Source: Pelagibacterium nitratireducens (lineage in GTDB: Bacteria > Pseudomonadota > Alphaproteobacteria > Rhizobiales > Devosiaceae). Taken from it: a stretch of DNA of 64,000 nucleotides. The position numbers were made by a program, and so were the translations under genes. The stretch spans positions 2,212,501 to 2,276,500 of the forward strand of contig NZ_CP146275.1 of assembly GCF_037044555.1 (NCBI RefSeq), read 5' to 3'. The notes beneath the pieces are model-generated. The model was not told where the DNA came from and ran no database searches. It was given only the letters and a program-made list of their open reading frames with translations. Shown here in pieces: positions 20,341 to 52,167 of the stretch. The number at the start of each line of letters is the position of its first letter. The first letter of the stretch is position 1.

Positions 20341-21393
20341 TCATTGCCGCCTGGCTTCCCGCATCAGCAGCCAGACGAAATACAGCCCCCCGATGGAGAC
20401 GGTGACCACGCCCACCGGCAGCTGGGTTGGCGCAAAGACGCGCTGTGCCAGAAAATCCGCTACAGCGAGCAGCAGCGCGCCCATTGCCGCAGACGGAAGC
20501 AGCGCCACCCCGGCGGCTCCGGTCACCCGGCGGGCGATCTGCGGGGCGGCCAGCGCAACAAACGAAATCGGTCCGGCCACGGCGGTCGCGGTCGCCGTCA
20601 GCGCCACCCCGAGAACCAGCAGGGCCAGCCGCACAGGCTCGGCGCGAATACCGAGGGCGCGCGCTGCGTCGTCGCCCATTTCGAGCTGTTTCATGGGACG
20701 TCCCAGGATCAGCACCAGCGGCATCAGAACGCCGAGCACCACGAGCGTCGGCCAGAGCTTGTCCAGGCCGAGCCCGTTGAGAGAGCCAGCGCCCCATACG
20801 GCCGCGGCCATCGCCACCTCGAGCTTGGCGCGCAGCATCAGCCATGTGTTGAGCGAGGAGAGCATGGCGCTCATGCCGATGCCGACGATGATGAGCCGGA
20901 AGCCCTGCACGCCGCGCCGCCAGGCCAGCGCATAGACGGCGAGCGCGGTCAGCACGCCACCGAGCAAAGCTCCGCCTGCGATCTGATAATAATTGCCCGA
21001 AAAGACGATGATGGCGATCAGCGCGCCAGTGTAGGCGCCCGAATTGAAGCCGATCACGTCGGGACTGCCGAGCGGATTGCGGGTGAGCGACTGGAACACG
21101 GCGCCGCTCATCCCCAGGGCGGCGCCAAGGATGACCGCCAGCAGGGAGCGCGGCAGGCGCCATTCGACGACCACCATGTGGATTCGGCCATCGGCCTGCC
21201 CGATCAGCGCCGCGATGACATCGGGCAGCGCGACGGGATATTCACCACTCGCCAGCGCCAGCAAGGTAACACCGAGGGCGGCTGCGAACATGATGGCGAC
21301 CAGCGCCATGACGCGCATATCGAGCCGCATGGTGACCCGGCCATCGAACAGGCGCAGAATTTTCGTGGGCCGGCCGAAATCGATGGCGCTCAT
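20341..21393 (-). CDS. FecCD-type siderophore ABC transporter permease
   Basis: 350-residue inner-membrane permease with about nine hydrophobic helices. Family hallmarks: LPRSLLAVILGAALGMSGAVFQSLTRNPLGSPDVIGFNSGA and VAGPISFVALAAPQIARRVTG (the loop that contacts the ATPase). Start overlaps the stop of the first permease as ATGA (21390-21393), so the two are translationally coupled and probably form the heterodimeric channel. Length fits FepD/FepG. The ~30-residue N-terminal tail before the first helix is slightly long. Confidence 0.94.
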   Translation of the reverse strand: MSAIDFGRPTKILRLFDGRVTMRLDMRVMALVAIMFAAALGVTLLALASGEYPVALPDVIAALIGQADGRIHMVVVEWRLPRSLLAVILGAALGMSGAVFQSLTRNPLGSPDVIGFNSGAYTGALIAIIVFSGNYYQIAGGALLGGVLTALAVYALAWRRGVQGFRLIIVGIGMSAMLSSLNTWLMLRAKLEVAMAAAVWGAGSLNGLGLDKLWPTLVVLGVLMPLVLILGRPMKQLEMGDDAARALGIRAEPVRLALLVLGVALTATATAVAGPISFVALAAPQIARRVTGAAGVALLPSAAMGALLLAVADFLAQRVFAPTQLPVGVVTVSIGGLYFVWLLMREARRQ

Positions 21394-22439
21394 AGTCCGC
21401 TTACCTTGCGCCTGCGGGCCAGAAGGATCAGCACCGGCGCGCCGATGAAGGCGGTGACGATGGCAACCTGGATTTCGCCGGGCCGCATGACAATGCGCCC
21501 GATGATGTCGGAGATCAAAAGCAGCACCGGCGCCAGAACAACGGTATAGGCCATGATCCAGCGTTGGTCGGGCCCTACGATCCAGCGCGCGACGTGCGGT
21601 ACCATCAGGCCCACAAACCCTATGGGGCCGACGGCAGCGGTCGCACCGCCGGCAAGCAGTGTGACCGCGATCACGACCACCGTGCGAACGCGCACGATGT
21701 TGGCGCCCAGCGATTTTGCCAGGTCGTCGCCCAGCGCGACCGCATTGAGCGGACGGGCCATCAGGGCGGCCAGCAGCAGGCCGACAATGAGGAAGGGCGC
21801 CACTGTCGTCACCGCCTCATAGGTGCCGCCGCTCAGCGCACCGGCAGCCCAGAAACGCATGCGATCGAATGCCGTGGGGTTGAGGAGCGTGAGGGCCGTG
21901 GACACACCACCGAGGATCGCCCCGATGGCGACGCCGGCAAGGGTCAGCGTGACCGGGGTGGCCCCGTTGCGCCCCGATGAGCCCACGACATAGACCATAA
22001 CCGTGGTGATGATGGCGCCGAGAAAGGCGAACCAGATGTAAGACTGCAGTGAGGTCATGCCGAGATAGCCCACGGCGATCAAAACGAAAAAGCTCGCGCC
22101 CGCATTGACGCCGAGAATGCCCGGATCGGCCAGGGGATTGCGGGTCAGAGCCTGAATGAGCGCACCGGACGTTCCAAGCGCTGCGCCGATCAAGAGCCCG
22201 AGCATCGTGCGCGGCAGGCGCAGGGTCCGGACGATGGCGTGGTCGTTGGAATCGTCATAGGCGAACAGCGCATCGATGACAGTGGGCACAGGGATGTCGC
22301 GGGAGCCGACGGCGATACTGGCGAGCACCGCCACGAGCAGCACTGCAAGGCAGATCATCAGCCCCAAAAAGCGCCGGGCATTGTTTGCGGCGACGCCGGG
22401 CCGGCGTGCAGCCTGAGCTTGTTCGGCAATAGCAGTCAC
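21390..22439 (-). CDS. FecCD-type siderophore ABC transporter permease (first gene of operon)
   Basis: 349-residue inner-membrane permease. Hallmarks: LPRTMLGLLIGAALGTSGALIQALTRNPLADPGILGVNAGA and AAVGPIGFVGLMVPHVARWIVG. It is the first gene of the five-gene iron operon (permease, permease, ATPase, binding protein, binding protein). This order is unusual because the binding proteins come last. A TGA-N9-TCA operator 53-67 bases upstream of the start overlaps the -35 region, pointing to repression by RirA when iron is sufficient. Substrate inferred as a ferric siderophore. Confidence 0.94.
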   Translation of the reverse strand: MTAIAEQAQAARRPGVAANNARRFLGLMICLAVLLVAVLASIAVGSRDIPVPTVIDALFAYDDSNDHAIVRTLRLPRTMLGLLIGAALGTSGALIQALTRNPLADPGILGVNAGASFFVLIAVGYLGMTSLQSYIWFAFLGAIITTVMVYVVGSSGRNGATPVTLTLAGVAIGAILGGVSTALTLLNPTAFDRMRFWAAGALSGGTYEAVTTVAPFLIVGLLLAALMARPLNAVALGDDLAKSLGANIVRVRTVVVIAVTLLAGGATAAVGPIGFVGLMVPHVARWIVGPDQRWIMAYTVVLAPVLLLISDIIGRIVMRPGEIQVAIVTAFIGAPVLILLARRRKVSGL

Positions 22440-22491
22440 GTGGCCAATCGCTCCGGCGATAGTCAGCGGAATTGGGCCTAGCTATATTTTA

Positions 22492-22506
22492 TGATTTAGA
22501 CAGTCA
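22492..22506 (-). promoter_or_regulatory. RirA-type iron-responsive operator before siderophore operon
   Basis: TGATTTAGACAGTCA fits TGA-N9-TCA, the known iron-responsive operator of rhizobial RirA. On the minus strand it overlaps a TTGACT -35 box (22502-22507); the -10 box is uncertain (TAGCTA at 17 bases or TATAGC at 15). It is 53-67 bases upstream of the permease start. Confidence 0.7.
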
Positions 22507-22531
22507 AGTTAAATGCGCCCGCGCGCCTGCG

Positions 22532-47828: not shown

Positions 47829-48587
47829 TCAATCGTAGAACAGCGAGACCCGGTGCCCGCCGATCTCGTGGACATTGATGTCCATATCGTAGATGTCCTT
47901 GAGCGCCTCGGGGGTGATGATGTCGTCCCTTCCGCCGTGGCGGATCACCCTGCCGTTTTTCATGGCAATGATGTAGTCTGAATACCAGGACGCGAAGTTG
48001 ATGTCGTGCAGGACCAGAACGACCGTCTTGCCCAGTTCGTGACAGGCGCGCTGCATGAGTTTCATCATGCCCATAGCGTGCTTCATGTCGAGATTGTTGA
48101 GCGGTTCGTCGAGCAGGACATAATCTGTATCCTGACAGAGCACCATGGCGACAAAGGCCCGTTGGCGCTGCCCGCCCGAGAGTTCGTCGAGAAACCTGTC
48201 CCGCAGATCCTCGAGATTGAGATAGGCGATGGACTGGTCGATGTGGCCCTTGTCCTCGATGGTCAGCCGCCCCTTGGAATAGGGATAGCGTCCGAAGGCC
48301 ACCAGATCTGCCACCGTCAGGCGTGCCGTCATGTGGTTGTCCTGGCGCAGGATCGACATGCGCCGGGCCAGAACGTCGCTGGGCGTATCGGACACATCGA
48401 GACCATCGACGGTCACCGAGCCCGCATCCATGCCCAGAAGTCGCGAAATGATGGAAAGCATGGTGGATTTGCCCGCGCCGTTCGGCCCGATGATCGAGGT
48501 GATGCCACGGGAGGGCAGTTCGATCGACACGTCGTCGACCACGGCGGTTTCGCCGTAATATTTCTTGATGCCGGACGTGATGATCAT
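47829..48587 (-). CDS. Siderophore ABC transporter ATP-binding protein (CeuD/YclP type)
   Basis: 252-residue ATPase. Walker A GPNGAGKST, signature LSGGQRQRAFVAM, Walker B YVLLDEPLNNLD and switch His VLHDINFA. The sequence resembles petrobactin/enterochelin-type ATPases of the YclP/CeuD/VctC group, which pair with two separate permease genes, as here. Start overlaps the preceding permease stop as ATGA (48584-48587). Last gene of the operon. Confidence 0.94.
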   Translation of the reverse strand: MIITSGIKKYYGETAVVDDVSIELPSRGITSIIGPNGAGKSTMLSIISRLLGMDAGSVTVDGLDVSDTPSDVLARRMSILRQDNHMTARLTVADLVAFGRYPYSKGRLTIEDKGHIDQSIAYLNLEDLRDRFLDELSGGQRQRAFVAMVLCQDTDYVLLDEPLNNLDMKHAMGMMKLMQRACHELGKTVVLVLHDINFASWYSDYIIAMKNGRVIRHGGRDDIITPEALKDIYDMDINVHEIGGHRVSLFYD

Positions 48588-49549
48588 CGCGCCGCTCCCC
48601 GTAGAATGAGAATGATGAAGACGAGGCCGCCGGCAAATTCGATGATCACCGATATTGCGGTGGTGAAATTGAAGACACGCTCGAGAATCAACTGCCCGCC
48701 CAGCAAACAGATGACGCCGAGCATGATGGTCGCCGGCAGCACGTAGCGATGCTTGGAGGTTCCCATCATCAGGTAACCGAGATTGGCCACCAGCAGCCCG
48801 AAGAACGTCACGGGCCCAACCAGCGCCGTGGACACCGAAACAAGCAGCGTCACCAGCAGAAGAATGATCAGGACCGTCCGCTTGTAGGGGACGCCCAGAT
48901 TTATCGCCGTTTCCCTGCCGAGCGAGAGGACGTCGAATGTATGCCCTATCCGCCAGGCGACCACGGTCGCCAACCCGATTATCACCATGGAAACCGTAAG
49001 CAGATCGGTGTTGAGCGAATTGAAACTGGCAAACAGGCTGTCCTGGATGCGGGCGAATTCATTGGGGTCGATGATCCGCACCATGAAATTGGACATGGAG
49101 CGAAACAGCGTGCCGATGACAATCCCCACCAGTACCATCAGATGCAGGCTGCGGTGGCGACCGGAAAACATCCACAGACACAGCAGCCCCGAGAACACGA
49201 GCATGGCGCCCAGTTCGATGGAGAACTTGATGTAGGGGTGAACCGTCGCCGCGGCGAGCCCGCCGAACAGAAAGACCGTTGCGGTCTGGATGAGCACGTA
49301 AAGGGAATCGAATCCCATGATCGATGGGGTGAGGATGCGGTTCTGCATCACGGTCTGGAACATGACCGTGGAAAGCCCGATCGCGTAGGCGACCAGCACC
49401 ATTGTGAGTACCTTGGTGCCCCTGAAACTGAGAACGAACCCCCAGCTTCCACGCGCCCCGACGGTCATGAACAACACGATGGTGATCACCGTCAGGACTG
49501 CGAGACCGGCAAGAATGTATTCGGGCGCTATGCGGCGGCGCGCCATCAT
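48584..49549 (-). CDS. Siderophore ABC transporter permease (YclO/CeuC type)
   Basis: 321-residue FecCD-type inner-membrane permease with about nine helices. Hallmarks: VAYAIGLSTVMFQTVMQNRILTPSIMGFDSLYVLIQT and ALVGPVTFFGLLVANLGYLMMG. I chose ATG 49549 (MMARRRIAPEY), 8 bases after the other permease's stop; ATG 49546 is also possible. Second permease of the CeuB/CeuC-type heterodimer. Sequence distant from the permeases of the first iron locus, so a different ferric siderophore is likely. Confidence 0.92.
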   Translation of the reverse strand: MMARRRIAPEYILAGLAVLTVITIVLFMTVGARGSWGFVLSFRGTKVLTMVLVAYAIGLSTVMFQTVMQNRILTPSIMGFDSLYVLIQTATVFLFGGLAAATVHPYIKFSIELGAMLVFSGLLCLWMFSGRHRSLHLMVLVGIVIGTLFRSMSNFMVRIIDPNEFARIQDSLFASFNSLNTDLLTVSMVIIGLATVVAWRIGHTFDVLSLGRETAINLGVPYKRTVLIILLLVTLLVSVSTALVGPVTFFGLLVANLGYLMMGTSKHRYVLPATIMLGVICLLGGQLILERVFNFTTAISVIIEFAGGLVFIILILRGAAR

Positions 49550-49556
49550 GATGACA

Positions 49557-50552
49557 TCAGCCAAGGCGGGCCTCCCGGCGCAACAGAAGATACAGGAACA
49601 GCACGGCCCCGACGATGCCGACGACGACACCGACCGGTATCTCATAGGGGTAGCGCACGAGACGCCCCACGATGTCGCAGGCCAGAACGAAACCCGCGCC
49701 GAACAGCGCAATCCATGGAACCGAGCGTCGCAGATTGTCACCCATCATCATCGAGACCAGATTGGGCACGATCAGCCCCAAAAAGGGGATGGCCCCGACC
49801 GTCACCACCACCGTTGCACTGATGAGCGAAATGATGACGAGCCCCAGGGTCATGACGTTGCGATGGTTGAGGCCGAGATTGGTCGTAAAGTCCTCCCCCA
49901 TCCCTGCCACCGTAAACCGGTCTGCCGCGAGCCAGGCGATAAGCGTCAGGGCGGCGGCAATCCACAGCAGCTCATAGCGTCCGCTCAGAACAGTCGAGAA
50001 ATCTCCCGACTGCCAGTTGCCGAGCGATTGCAGCAGCTCGAAGCGATAGGCGAAAAAGGTGGTGATCGAGGAGATGATGCCGCCGAGCATGATGCCGACA
50101 AGCGGAACCAGCAGCACCGAGCGCAGCGGAATTTCGCGCAGGATACGCAGGAACAGCGCCGTCCCGGCCAGCGCGAACACCGAGGCGATGAGCATCTTGC
50201 CGATCAGCGGAATGTTGGGAAAAAACAGCAGGACGACCAGCATGCCCAATCCGGCCGACTCTGTGGTGCCGGCGGTCGAGGGCTCGACAAACCGGTTTCG
50301 CGCCAGCATCTGCATGATCATGCCGGCAATGGCCAGCCCCATTCCAGAAAGGATGAGGGCCAGCGTGCGCGGAATGCGGCTGACGAGAAGGATCATCAGC
50401 GCCCGGCCATCCTCGCTTCCCGACATCAGGGTGGCGAGCGAGACGTTCGAGACACCGATGAACAGGCTGACGACGGCGAGGGCCAGAACGAAGGCTGCAG
50501 CGAGGAATAGGCGTGTCACCGGCGGTGTGGTCTCCGATATCGTGCGGCGCAC
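49557..50552 (-). CDS. Siderophore ABC transporter permease (YclN/CeuB type)
   Basis: 331-residue FecCD-type inner-membrane permease. Hallmarks: IPRTLALILSGMGLAIAGMIMQMLARNRFVEPSTAGTTESAGLGML, in which EPSTAGTTE is typical of CeuB/YclN, and VTVGAIPFLGLIVPNLVSMMMGDNLR. Start is an uncertain GTG at 50552 that lies within the arm of a 13-bp hairpin (50545-50577); GTG 50519 (MTRLFLAAAF) is an alternative. First permease after the binding-protein gene, which lies 48 bases upstream. Confidence 0.9.
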   Translation of the reverse strand: MRRTISETTPPVTRLFLAAAFVLALAVVSLFIGVSNVSLATLMSGSEDGRALMILLVSRIPRTLALILSGMGLAIAGMIMQMLARNRFVEPSTAGTTESAGLGMLVVLLFFPNIPLIGKMLIASVFALAGTALFLRILREIPLRSVLLVPLVGIMLGGIISSITTFFAYRFELLQSLGNWQSGDFSTVLSGRYELLWIAAALTLIAWLAADRFTVAGMGEDFTTNLGLNHRNVMTLGLVIISLISATVVVTVGAIPFLGLIVPNLVSMMMGDNLRRSVPWIALFGAGFVLACDIVGRLVRYPYEIPVGVVVGIVGAVLFLYLLLRREARLG

Positions 50553-50600: not shown

Positions 50601-51539
50601 TTATTGGACGTCGGCGCCGATGGCTTCGCCGACTTCGACGACCATCTGATTGAGCGTATAGAGACCGCCATTGACGATGTAGAAGTTCACCGGATTGACA
50701 TAGACCACCCGGTCGTTCTGCCAGGCCTTCATCTGATGGACCAGATCGTTGTCGAGCACCTGCTGGGCCGGCTGGCCCCCATCGGCGGCACCGACAGCGG
50801 CGTCACGGTCGAGCACGAACAGCCAGTCGGGATCGGTTTCGAGCAGGAATTCGAAGGAGACAGCCTCACCATGGGTGGCTTCTTCGACGTCCTCGATGAC
50901 CGGCACGACGCCAAGATCGTCATGGATCCAGCCAAAGCGCGATCCCGGTCCGAACGCGGAAATGCGGCCGCCGCTGACGCTGATGAACAGCGCATTGCCG
51001 ACGGTGGGCGCGGTTTCCTGCACGGCCGCCATATTGGCATCGACCTGGGCGATCAGTTCGGCCACTTCGGCCTGTTTGCCAAAGATTTCCCCGAGCGTTT
51101 CGGAGCGCTGCTTGATTGTGGCCGGGAAATCGGTCCAGTCGACCGACAGGTCCAGGGTGGGCGCGATTTCGGAAAGCTGGGGATAGACCGCCGAGGAGCG
51201 GCCGGCGACAAAGATCGCGTCGGGCTGTTCGGCATTGACGAGTTCGTAATCAGGCTCGAACAGCGAGCCGATCTTGAGCGCGTCGCGATACTGGCTCAGA
51301 TGGTCGGGAAAGCTGGCATCGGGTACGCCGTCGACTTCAACGCCGATGGCGGCAAGTGTGTCGATGGTCCCAAGATCATAGGCAAAGATTTTTTCGGGAA
51401 TGCCCGGCAGTACCGTTTCGCCCTGGGCGTGTTGCGCCGTGATTTCCTGCGCGGACGCTCCAGCGGTGAGGGCGAGCGAAGCCGCAAGGGCAAGGGCCGC
51501 GGTGGCGGTCCGGAAATGGTTTGAAGAATGCACGATCAC
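50601..51539 (-). CDS. Siderophore ABC transporter substrate-binding protein (YclQ/CeuE type)
   Basis: 312-residue periplasmic binding protein for ferric siderophores. The N-terminus is a signal peptide (HSSNHFRTATAALALAASLALTAGASA). Mature part: GETVLPGIPEKIFAYDLGTIDTLAAIGVEVDGVPDASFPDHLSQY... and LVNAEQPDAIFVAGRSSAVYPQLSEIAPTLDLSVDW, as in YclQ/CeuE/VctP. Starts with GTG; 51539 or 51533 are both possible and neither has a strong ribosome site. First gene of the operon binding protein, permease, permease, ATPase. Two RirA-type operators bracket its promoter. Confidence 0.91.
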   Translation of the reverse strand: MIVHSSNHFRTATAALALAASLALTAGASAQEITAQHAQGETVLPGIPEKIFAYDLGTIDTLAAIGVEVDGVPDASFPDHLSQYRDALKIGSLFEPDYELVNAEQPDAIFVAGRSSAVYPQLSEIAPTLDLSVDWTDFPATIKQRSETLGEIFGKQAEVAELIAQVDANMAAVQETAPTVGNALFISVSGGRISAFGPGSRFGWIHDDLGVVPVIEDVEEATHGEAVSFEFLLETDPDWLFVLDRDAAVGAADGGQPAQQVLDNDLVHQMKAWQNDRVVYVNPVNFYIVNGGLYTLNQMVVEVGEAIGADVQ

Positions 51540-51579
51540 AATCCAATCGTTGGCTAAGGGTCGGATGTGCAGCCAATGC

Positions 51580-51646
51580 TGACTGCAAACATCAGGTTAT
51601 TAGCCAGCATGCCGACCCGCGTCAACATAGTTGATCGCTATAATCA
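51580..51646 (-). promoter_or_regulatory. Promoter flanked by two RirA-type iron operators
   Basis: On the minus strand: TGA-N9-TCA (51632-51646), 6 bases, TTGACG -35 (51620-51625), 17 bases, TAATAA -10 (51597-51602), 2 bases, a second TGA-N9-TCA (51580-51594). The predicted transcription start falls inside the second operator, about 50 bases before the binding-protein start. The two operators are 52 bp apart, centre to centre, about five helical turns. Confidence 0.82.
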
Positions 51647-51666
51647 GGTTTTGATTTTTCGGAACG

Positions 51667-52167
51667 TTAAGTGCGCGCCTTGTCGAGCAGAACGCGGCAT
51701 TGCTCAAGAGATTCAAGCGCCGAGGCAAGGGTTTCGCGCTGCGTGTCGGATAACCCTGTCGCCTTGGGGCCTCGCTGTTCTCCGTTGTCGACCGGTGCCG
51801 CCAGGGTATGGCCGGCCTCGATTTCCACGAACTCGACGGCGTCGGCGGTTTCGGCCGGCTCCACATGAGGCTGGGGTGCGATGGGACGGATGGACCCTGT
51901 CTCGCCGATGGCCACGACATGTCTGGCGCCCTGCTCCTTGAGGATGCGCTGGACGCCCTTGATCGTGAAACCCTGGTCGTAGAGAAGGTGGCGGATACCC
52001 TTGAGCAGCTGAACGTCATCAGGGCGATAATAGCGCCGCCCACCGCCACGCTTGAGTGGCTTGATCTGCGTGAACCGCGTTTCCCAGAAACGCAGCACAT
52101 GCTGAGGTAGGTCGAGTTCGTCTGCCGCTTCGGATATCGTCCGGAAGGCGTCTGGCGATTTGTCCAA
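51667..52167 (-). CDS. MerR family transcriptional regulator
   Basis: 166 residues. An N-terminal MerR winged-helix domain reads [71 protein letters not shown]. It has no C-terminal effector domain of the metal or drug type; the remainder is a Pro/Glu-rich linker and a short helix. Start is TTG at 52167. This gene follows ihfA in many alphaproteobacteria (known context), so it belongs with the fabH-ihfA region and is not a specific regulator of the siderophore operon. Target unknown. Confidence 0.9.

Follow-up and report, generated by a model that had tools for sequence, protein, structure and literature searches.

In the stretch of DNA from Pelagibacterium nitratireducens that we analysed (64,000 nt, hereafter the window), a promoter lies between two operators of the RirA type, and very probably RirA represses it and thereby controls an ABC importer of the iron-siderophore type, with both operators serving as redundant blocks. 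The evidence read from the DNA consists of the layout itself, its conservation in relatives, an extended symmetric operator, the presence of a RirA gene and similar sites at several iron genes. We considered the promoter between its two operators as a real, mostly expected iron-control element, and its description as a RirA promoter that is new and whose two-site layout is conserved appears well supported, both the regulator and the motif being already known.

Promoter and operon

Read 5′ to 3′ on the minus strand of the window, the promoter is made of an operator, six bases, TTGACG, a 17-bp spacer, TAATAA, two bases and a second operator. The two TGA-N9-TCA 15-mers, the two boxes and the distances of 6, 2 and 17 bp, as given in the preliminary description, are all correct on this strand. 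The features of the promoter and of the operon behind it are the following:

51632-51646, minus strand: upstream operator TGATTATAGCGATCA (TGA-N9-TCA), from sequence, conserved in relatives
51628-51650, minus strand: upstream operator with flanks (AACC...ACTA)
51620-51625, minus strand: -35 element TTGACG, from sequence
51597-51602, minus strand: -10-like element TAATAA, from sequence
51580-51594, minus strand: downstream operator TGATGTTTGCAGTCA (TGA-N9-TCA), from sequence, conserved in relatives
51576-51598, minus strand: downstream operator with flanks
50601-51539, minus strand: periplasmic substrate-binding protein of an iron-type ABC importer (Peripla_BP_2)
49557-50552, minus strand: FecCD permease 1
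48584-49741, minus strand: FecCD permease 2, Pfam match from residue 96
47829-48587, minus strand: ABC ATPase, best NCBIfam match FecE, under the curated cut-off

TAATAA agrees with TATAAT at three of six positions, and a sigma-70 scan of the region 51580-51646 gave no promoter. The final two A of TAATAA double as the AA that is conserved beside the downstream operator, so that operator and -10 element overlap, and this operator would cover a transcription start near 51590. Further upstream, on the same strand, there are a MerR-type gene, FabH and PlsX. No terminator was found between the MerR gene and the promoter, hence read-through could bypass both operators.

Two other kinds of control were rejected for the window promoter. 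Irr control was discarded because no TTTAGAA-type palindrome (Irr/ICE) was seen by eye in 51540-51667. A known RNA element was discarded because, in a search for Rfam-type elements at four loci (L014 from this genome, and L022-L024), there was no match in L014 and the only matches, in L022 and L024, were both under the gathering score.

The binding-protein gene starts either at the GTG at 51539 or at the GTG at 51533, which is preceded by GATTGGA; a by-eye comparison of the 5′ regions of relatives favours the latter. The ORF of FecCD permease 2, as listed, shares 185 bp with the gene before it, and its start is probably placed some tens of codons too early. The four operon proteins matched NCBIfam models of catecholamine-iron, dicitrate, hydroxamate, heme and B12 systems, none of them over its own cut-off among the matches listed (for the ATPase, the best 25 of 192), a spectrum that sets the class of the operon as iron-siderophore-type and fixes no single substrate. 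By family, the operon is an ABC importer of this type. The name "siderophore promoter" used in the preliminary description is therefore right as to the iron-type importer, whereas the word siderophore goes back to the transporter family. A TonB-receptor partner in the same genome was rejected, since neither PF00593 nor PF07715, the TonB-dependent receptor domains, was found there; across the family, the plug domain (PF07715) was present in just 65 of 136 genomes (E <= 0.001).

The operators and their conservation in the family

According to passages of published work, the iron-responsive operator (IRO) has the form TGA-N9-TCA and RirA binds in a cluster-dependent way (PMC5863699, PMC6386902, PMC10510648, PMC6748827); the fhuA operator of R. 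leguminosarum is given as TGACTAAAATAATCA(T) (PMC10510648), and in ChIP-seq of S. fredii the palindrome is reported in 5 of 10 peaks (PMC8822346). The operators of the window have the same form as those at iron-uptake promoters of Rhizobium leguminosarum (fhuA, vbsC, tonB) and Sinorhizobium fredii. Matching the published motif and conserved together with the promoter, they bear out the reading of TGA-N9-TCA as the operator of RirA.

Homologous promoters were collected by a six-frame search for the binding protein (E <= 1e-40), which gave loci in 71 of 136 genomes of the family Devosiaceae; protein identities went down to 38%, so that some of the 71 may be paralogues. We considered as dual layout a TTGAC preceded by one TGA-N9-TCA, which ends 0-14 bp before the box, and followed by a second one, which starts 27-39 bp after the first base of TTGAC; each operator was allowed no more than one mismatch. 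Precisely, 52 of the 71 homologous promoters had this layout, compared with 0 of 1400 Markov-shuffled promoters and with 3 of 526 other 430-nt stretches from 30 of the 71 loci, taken on both strands, where the 526 include the true-promoter stretches and the hits of the latter were omitted. TTGAC was demanded by the scans and its conservation is therefore not independent evidence. Among the 52 dual promoters the upstream site was exact in 36, the downstream site in 17 and both in 13.

Divided by genus, 70 loci showed the layout in 12/12 cases in g1 (the genus of the window), 38/47 in g5, 1/1 in g2 and 0/10 in six other genera, and the 71st locus (G013, genus g5) was dual-positive too. The exact pattern of two operators and TTGAC was matched 16 times in the 136 genomes, 13 of them at the importer operon, with the window promoter as the one match in its own genome and with 0 matches of the reversed control among the rows listed; outside the operon, two matches (L133 and L142) are inside long open frames and L134 is the third. 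When 25 named homologous loci were inspected, the pair was present at 5 and absent at 20, Rhizobium, Aquibium and Aureimonas included; the five (G127, G119, G130, G126 and G123) were already in the family set and give no independent support.

Nine of the 19 promoters without the pair retain one exact site near the gene, G062 among them. Three genomes with the operon (G002, G105 and G062) have neither a RirA over the cut-off nor the dual layout, a combination with a chance of about 0.017; G062, which is 84% complete, has a partial RirA match (model 55-148). In G110, two RirA genes are over the cut-off, yet there is no operator pair.

Irr-type palindromes were seen upstream of the same binding-protein gene in G093 (L040, with TTTAGAAGAATTCTAAA), G105 (L023) and G110 (L024), judged by the ICE consensus. 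Standing in place of the RirA pair, they look like an apparent swap of regulator. A leader block GATGGCGGGAC...CCCGTTGATCG, common to G002, G105 and G110, had no match in Rfam.

The consensus and the spacing were computed on 43 non-redundant dual promoters. AA at offsets -4/-3 from TGA was found in 36 and 31 upstream and in 42 and 40 downstream operators, and positions 17-19 were rich in T (40, 32 and 29 of 43 upstream; 35, 39 and 35 downstream), with A as the rest. These AT flanks are outside the search pattern and thus support both operators independently. The downstream half-site began with G rather than T in 21 of 42 promoters.

From the first T of TTGAC to the downstream operator the distance was 30-33 bp in the 43 promoters, and from the upstream operator to TTGAC it was 3-10 bp (mode 9; 6-7 in the genus of the window). 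The two operators had been placed on one face of the DNA, five helical turns apart; this suits the window and its closest relatives (52 bp, near five turns), but not the family, in which the spacing is 50-58 bp with a mode of 56, about 120 degrees off. Strict helical phasing is therefore not conserved, a shared face is not what selection keeps, and looping between dimers, like strict phasing, is unsupported. Separate occlusion by each dimer would fit better than a face-dependent contact between dimers.

RirA, its paralogue and other sites in the genome

The genome codes for six Rrf2 proteins. The rirA gene that the preliminary description presupposed is present: the main RirA (C1:1074144-1074578) scored 223-224 bits, over the curated NCBIfam cut-off of 193, and a RirA over this cut-off was found in 117 of the 136 family genomes. 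A second RirA-like Rrf2 protein (C1:3216442-3216882) scored 192.4 bits, just below it. Irr, which is the other iron regulator in these bacteria, is encoded too (206 bits, cut-off 150), whereas by eye no TTTAGAA-type palindrome was seen in the window promoter.

The main RirA has cysteines at 91, 99 and 105, plus Cys 17; by the numbering of other RirAs, the first three correspond to the conserved cluster cysteines. Compared with rhizobial RirA, the Pelagibacterium orthologue likewise has three cysteines, but Ser8 instead of Asn. The second RirA-like protein has Asn at this position, and relatives have Asn in 9 and Ser in 10 of the 19 starts read in frame (G096 being out of frame). In passages of PMC10510648, Asn8 is described as highly conserved among RirA homologues and not as a recognised cluster ligand, and its change to Asp or Cys as stabilising the cluster of R. 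leguminosarum RirA; since it is no recognised ligand, we did not use it to define RirA.

The extended motif AANNTGAN9TCANNWW gave 39 strand matches at 29 places genome-wide, against 3 and 1 for the reversed control; ORFs were inspected at 11 loci, and five further places were otherwise covered. Extended sites are near an iron-type ABC operon (1000977), rirA (1074007) and a candidate RNA (1074651), and also at a Peripla_BP_2 gene (1190439), the second FecCD operon of the window (2234988) and the window pair. Sites before iron genes, as had been anticipated, were thus found for rirA, for the Peripla_BP_2 gene and for two of the four other FecCD operons, but not for the remaining two; for these, at 3120755 and 3253045, the intergenic DNA of the stretches inspected contained no exact copy. 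The places 812857 and 2156306 are inside long frames and, like similar in-frame places, look like chance.

At 22488-22510 of the window, a single RirA-type site overlapping TTGAC precedes this second FecCD operon (20359-22340, minus strand), which would be controlled in the same way but with one operator. RirA-type palindromes were also seen before frames that, from their translation, we read as sdhC (202758) and nuoA (2181850), which suggests an iron control of respiratory Fe-S enzymes.

Of 20 relatives, 19 had an exact site within the 250 bp before rirA, and in 17 of the 20 it stood 6-7 bp before TTGAC; in the genome of the window the site adjoins TTGAC too. The site is followed by TTTAGAA-N3-TTATAA in 15 of 20 relatives and in this genome, a sequence that resembles an Irr box. 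The exceptions were G090 (site downstream instead), G098 (TTGCA) and G001 (no site). An operator at the rirA promoter is usually read as autorepression. While rirA is listed in the RirA regulon in passages of PMC5863699, the fbpA-rirA intergenic region of S. fredii HH103 is described, in part of PMC6386902, as having no IRO box, hence autoregulation of rirA is not universal.

A candidate small RNA is located 3′ of rirA (G000 C1:1074651-1074763; L059:6651-6763), with a palindromic RirA-type operator, a TAGATA -10 element, an invariant GCAGGAGTGAGGCCTGC hairpin and a 14-bp terminator-like stem; no ORF was seen in it by eye, and it had no match in Rfam. It was matched in 13/13 genomes of the same genus and in 15/136 of the family, being close to rirA in 12 of the 13 and about 9 kb off in G125. 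In 11 aligned genomes there were two-sided changes at 6 of 19 pairs, 99% of the cells pair, and the z of the fold was -3.0.

Proposed repression and its alternatives

From these data we infer RirA binding, repression, redundancy of the operators and an iron signal at the window promoter. With plentiful iron, [4Fe-4S] RirA dimers would bind one or both of the operators, about 23-25 bp each, one dimer abutting the -35 box and the other beginning inside the -10 element and extending over the start site. Each of them would be inside the RNA polymerase footprint, and the two would therefore form an OR gate of redundant blocks; together they would increase occupancy and make repression tighter. As iron becomes scarce, the cluster would degrade, RirA would be released and the importer would be made. 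The preliminary interpretation, with two RirA dimers at the two sides of the promoter and tight repression in ample iron, is supported for the most part, its geometry applying more narrowly than was stated. Occupancy also rises where a promoter takes up several repressor dimers, as with tandem Fur boxes; compared with that multi-operator repression, the protein family and the motif differ, and here the core promoter has one dimer site upstream and one downstream.

It is unlikely, in our judgement, that the downstream operator represses alone, with the upstream one as a fine-tuning or activating site and the pair not a redundant lock. The downstream site does keep a nearly fixed distance from TTGAC (30-33 bp), the upstream gap drifts over 3-10 bp, and the sites differ in quality (exact upstream in 36 and downstream in 17 of 52), but a site in the upstream position beside TTGAC recurs at the rirA promoters of 17/20 relatives and the extended flanks are common to both operators. 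We gave less credit to binding by the second RirA-like protein (C1:3216442-3216882), or by both paralogues: it misses the cut-off narrowly (192.4 against 193 bits) and has Asn8, not the Ser8 of the main RirA, whereas its gene is among nickel/cobalt-type transport genes (as read from the ORF sequences), the gaps between the ORFs listed in that region contain no exact TGA-N9-TCA, and in several dual-positive genomes, such as G119, G122, G123 and G130, the single match at E 1e-25 is the main RirA.

The bare motif is common. There are 24 copies of TGA-N9-TCA in the 64-kb window, against 11.8 +/- 3.3 in shuffles, none of which (0/100) reached 24, and 1175 copies in the whole genome (3.85 Mb, 2 contigs). 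TGA-N9-TCA by itself is weak evidence, and the case for RirA control is therefore decided by conservation. That a common 6-base motif fell twice beside a promoter by chance has next to no probability, and chance as sole cause of the pair was rejected on conservation: the density of the motif does predict about 11 pairs 30-60 bp apart genome-wide, but the layout is kept at 52 of 71 homologous promoters, flanking columns outside the search pattern are conserved, and 13 of 16 exact-pattern matches across 136 genomes are at the importer operon.

Repression by RirA through either operator being our preferred reading, the difference from the rhizobial systems is that in Pelagibacterium two operators bracket one promoter. 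No description of two IRO boxes around one promoter was found in the portions of the RirA literature covered; such pairs may be described in the original operator papers. A literature search combining RirA and Pelagibacterium found no paper. Only tentatively do we propose a double lock that Pelagibacterium would share with its family alone, and which would combine unequal operators, the downstream one fixed, with a stepped or steeper iron response, a Ser8 RirA and a circuit with an IRO-headed small RNA beside rirA. If this is true, the response to iron would be stepped or steeper than at single-IRO promoters.

The wider operator AA-N2-TGA-N9-TCA-N2-WW reduces the 1175 genome hits to 29 places and so provides a testable regulon list. 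RirA control, studied in rhizobia, would be extended to Pelagibacterium and its relatives, and this natural promoter with two sites, of which relatives have single-site and Irr-type forms, may tell how the number of operators shapes the response of an Fe-S sensor.
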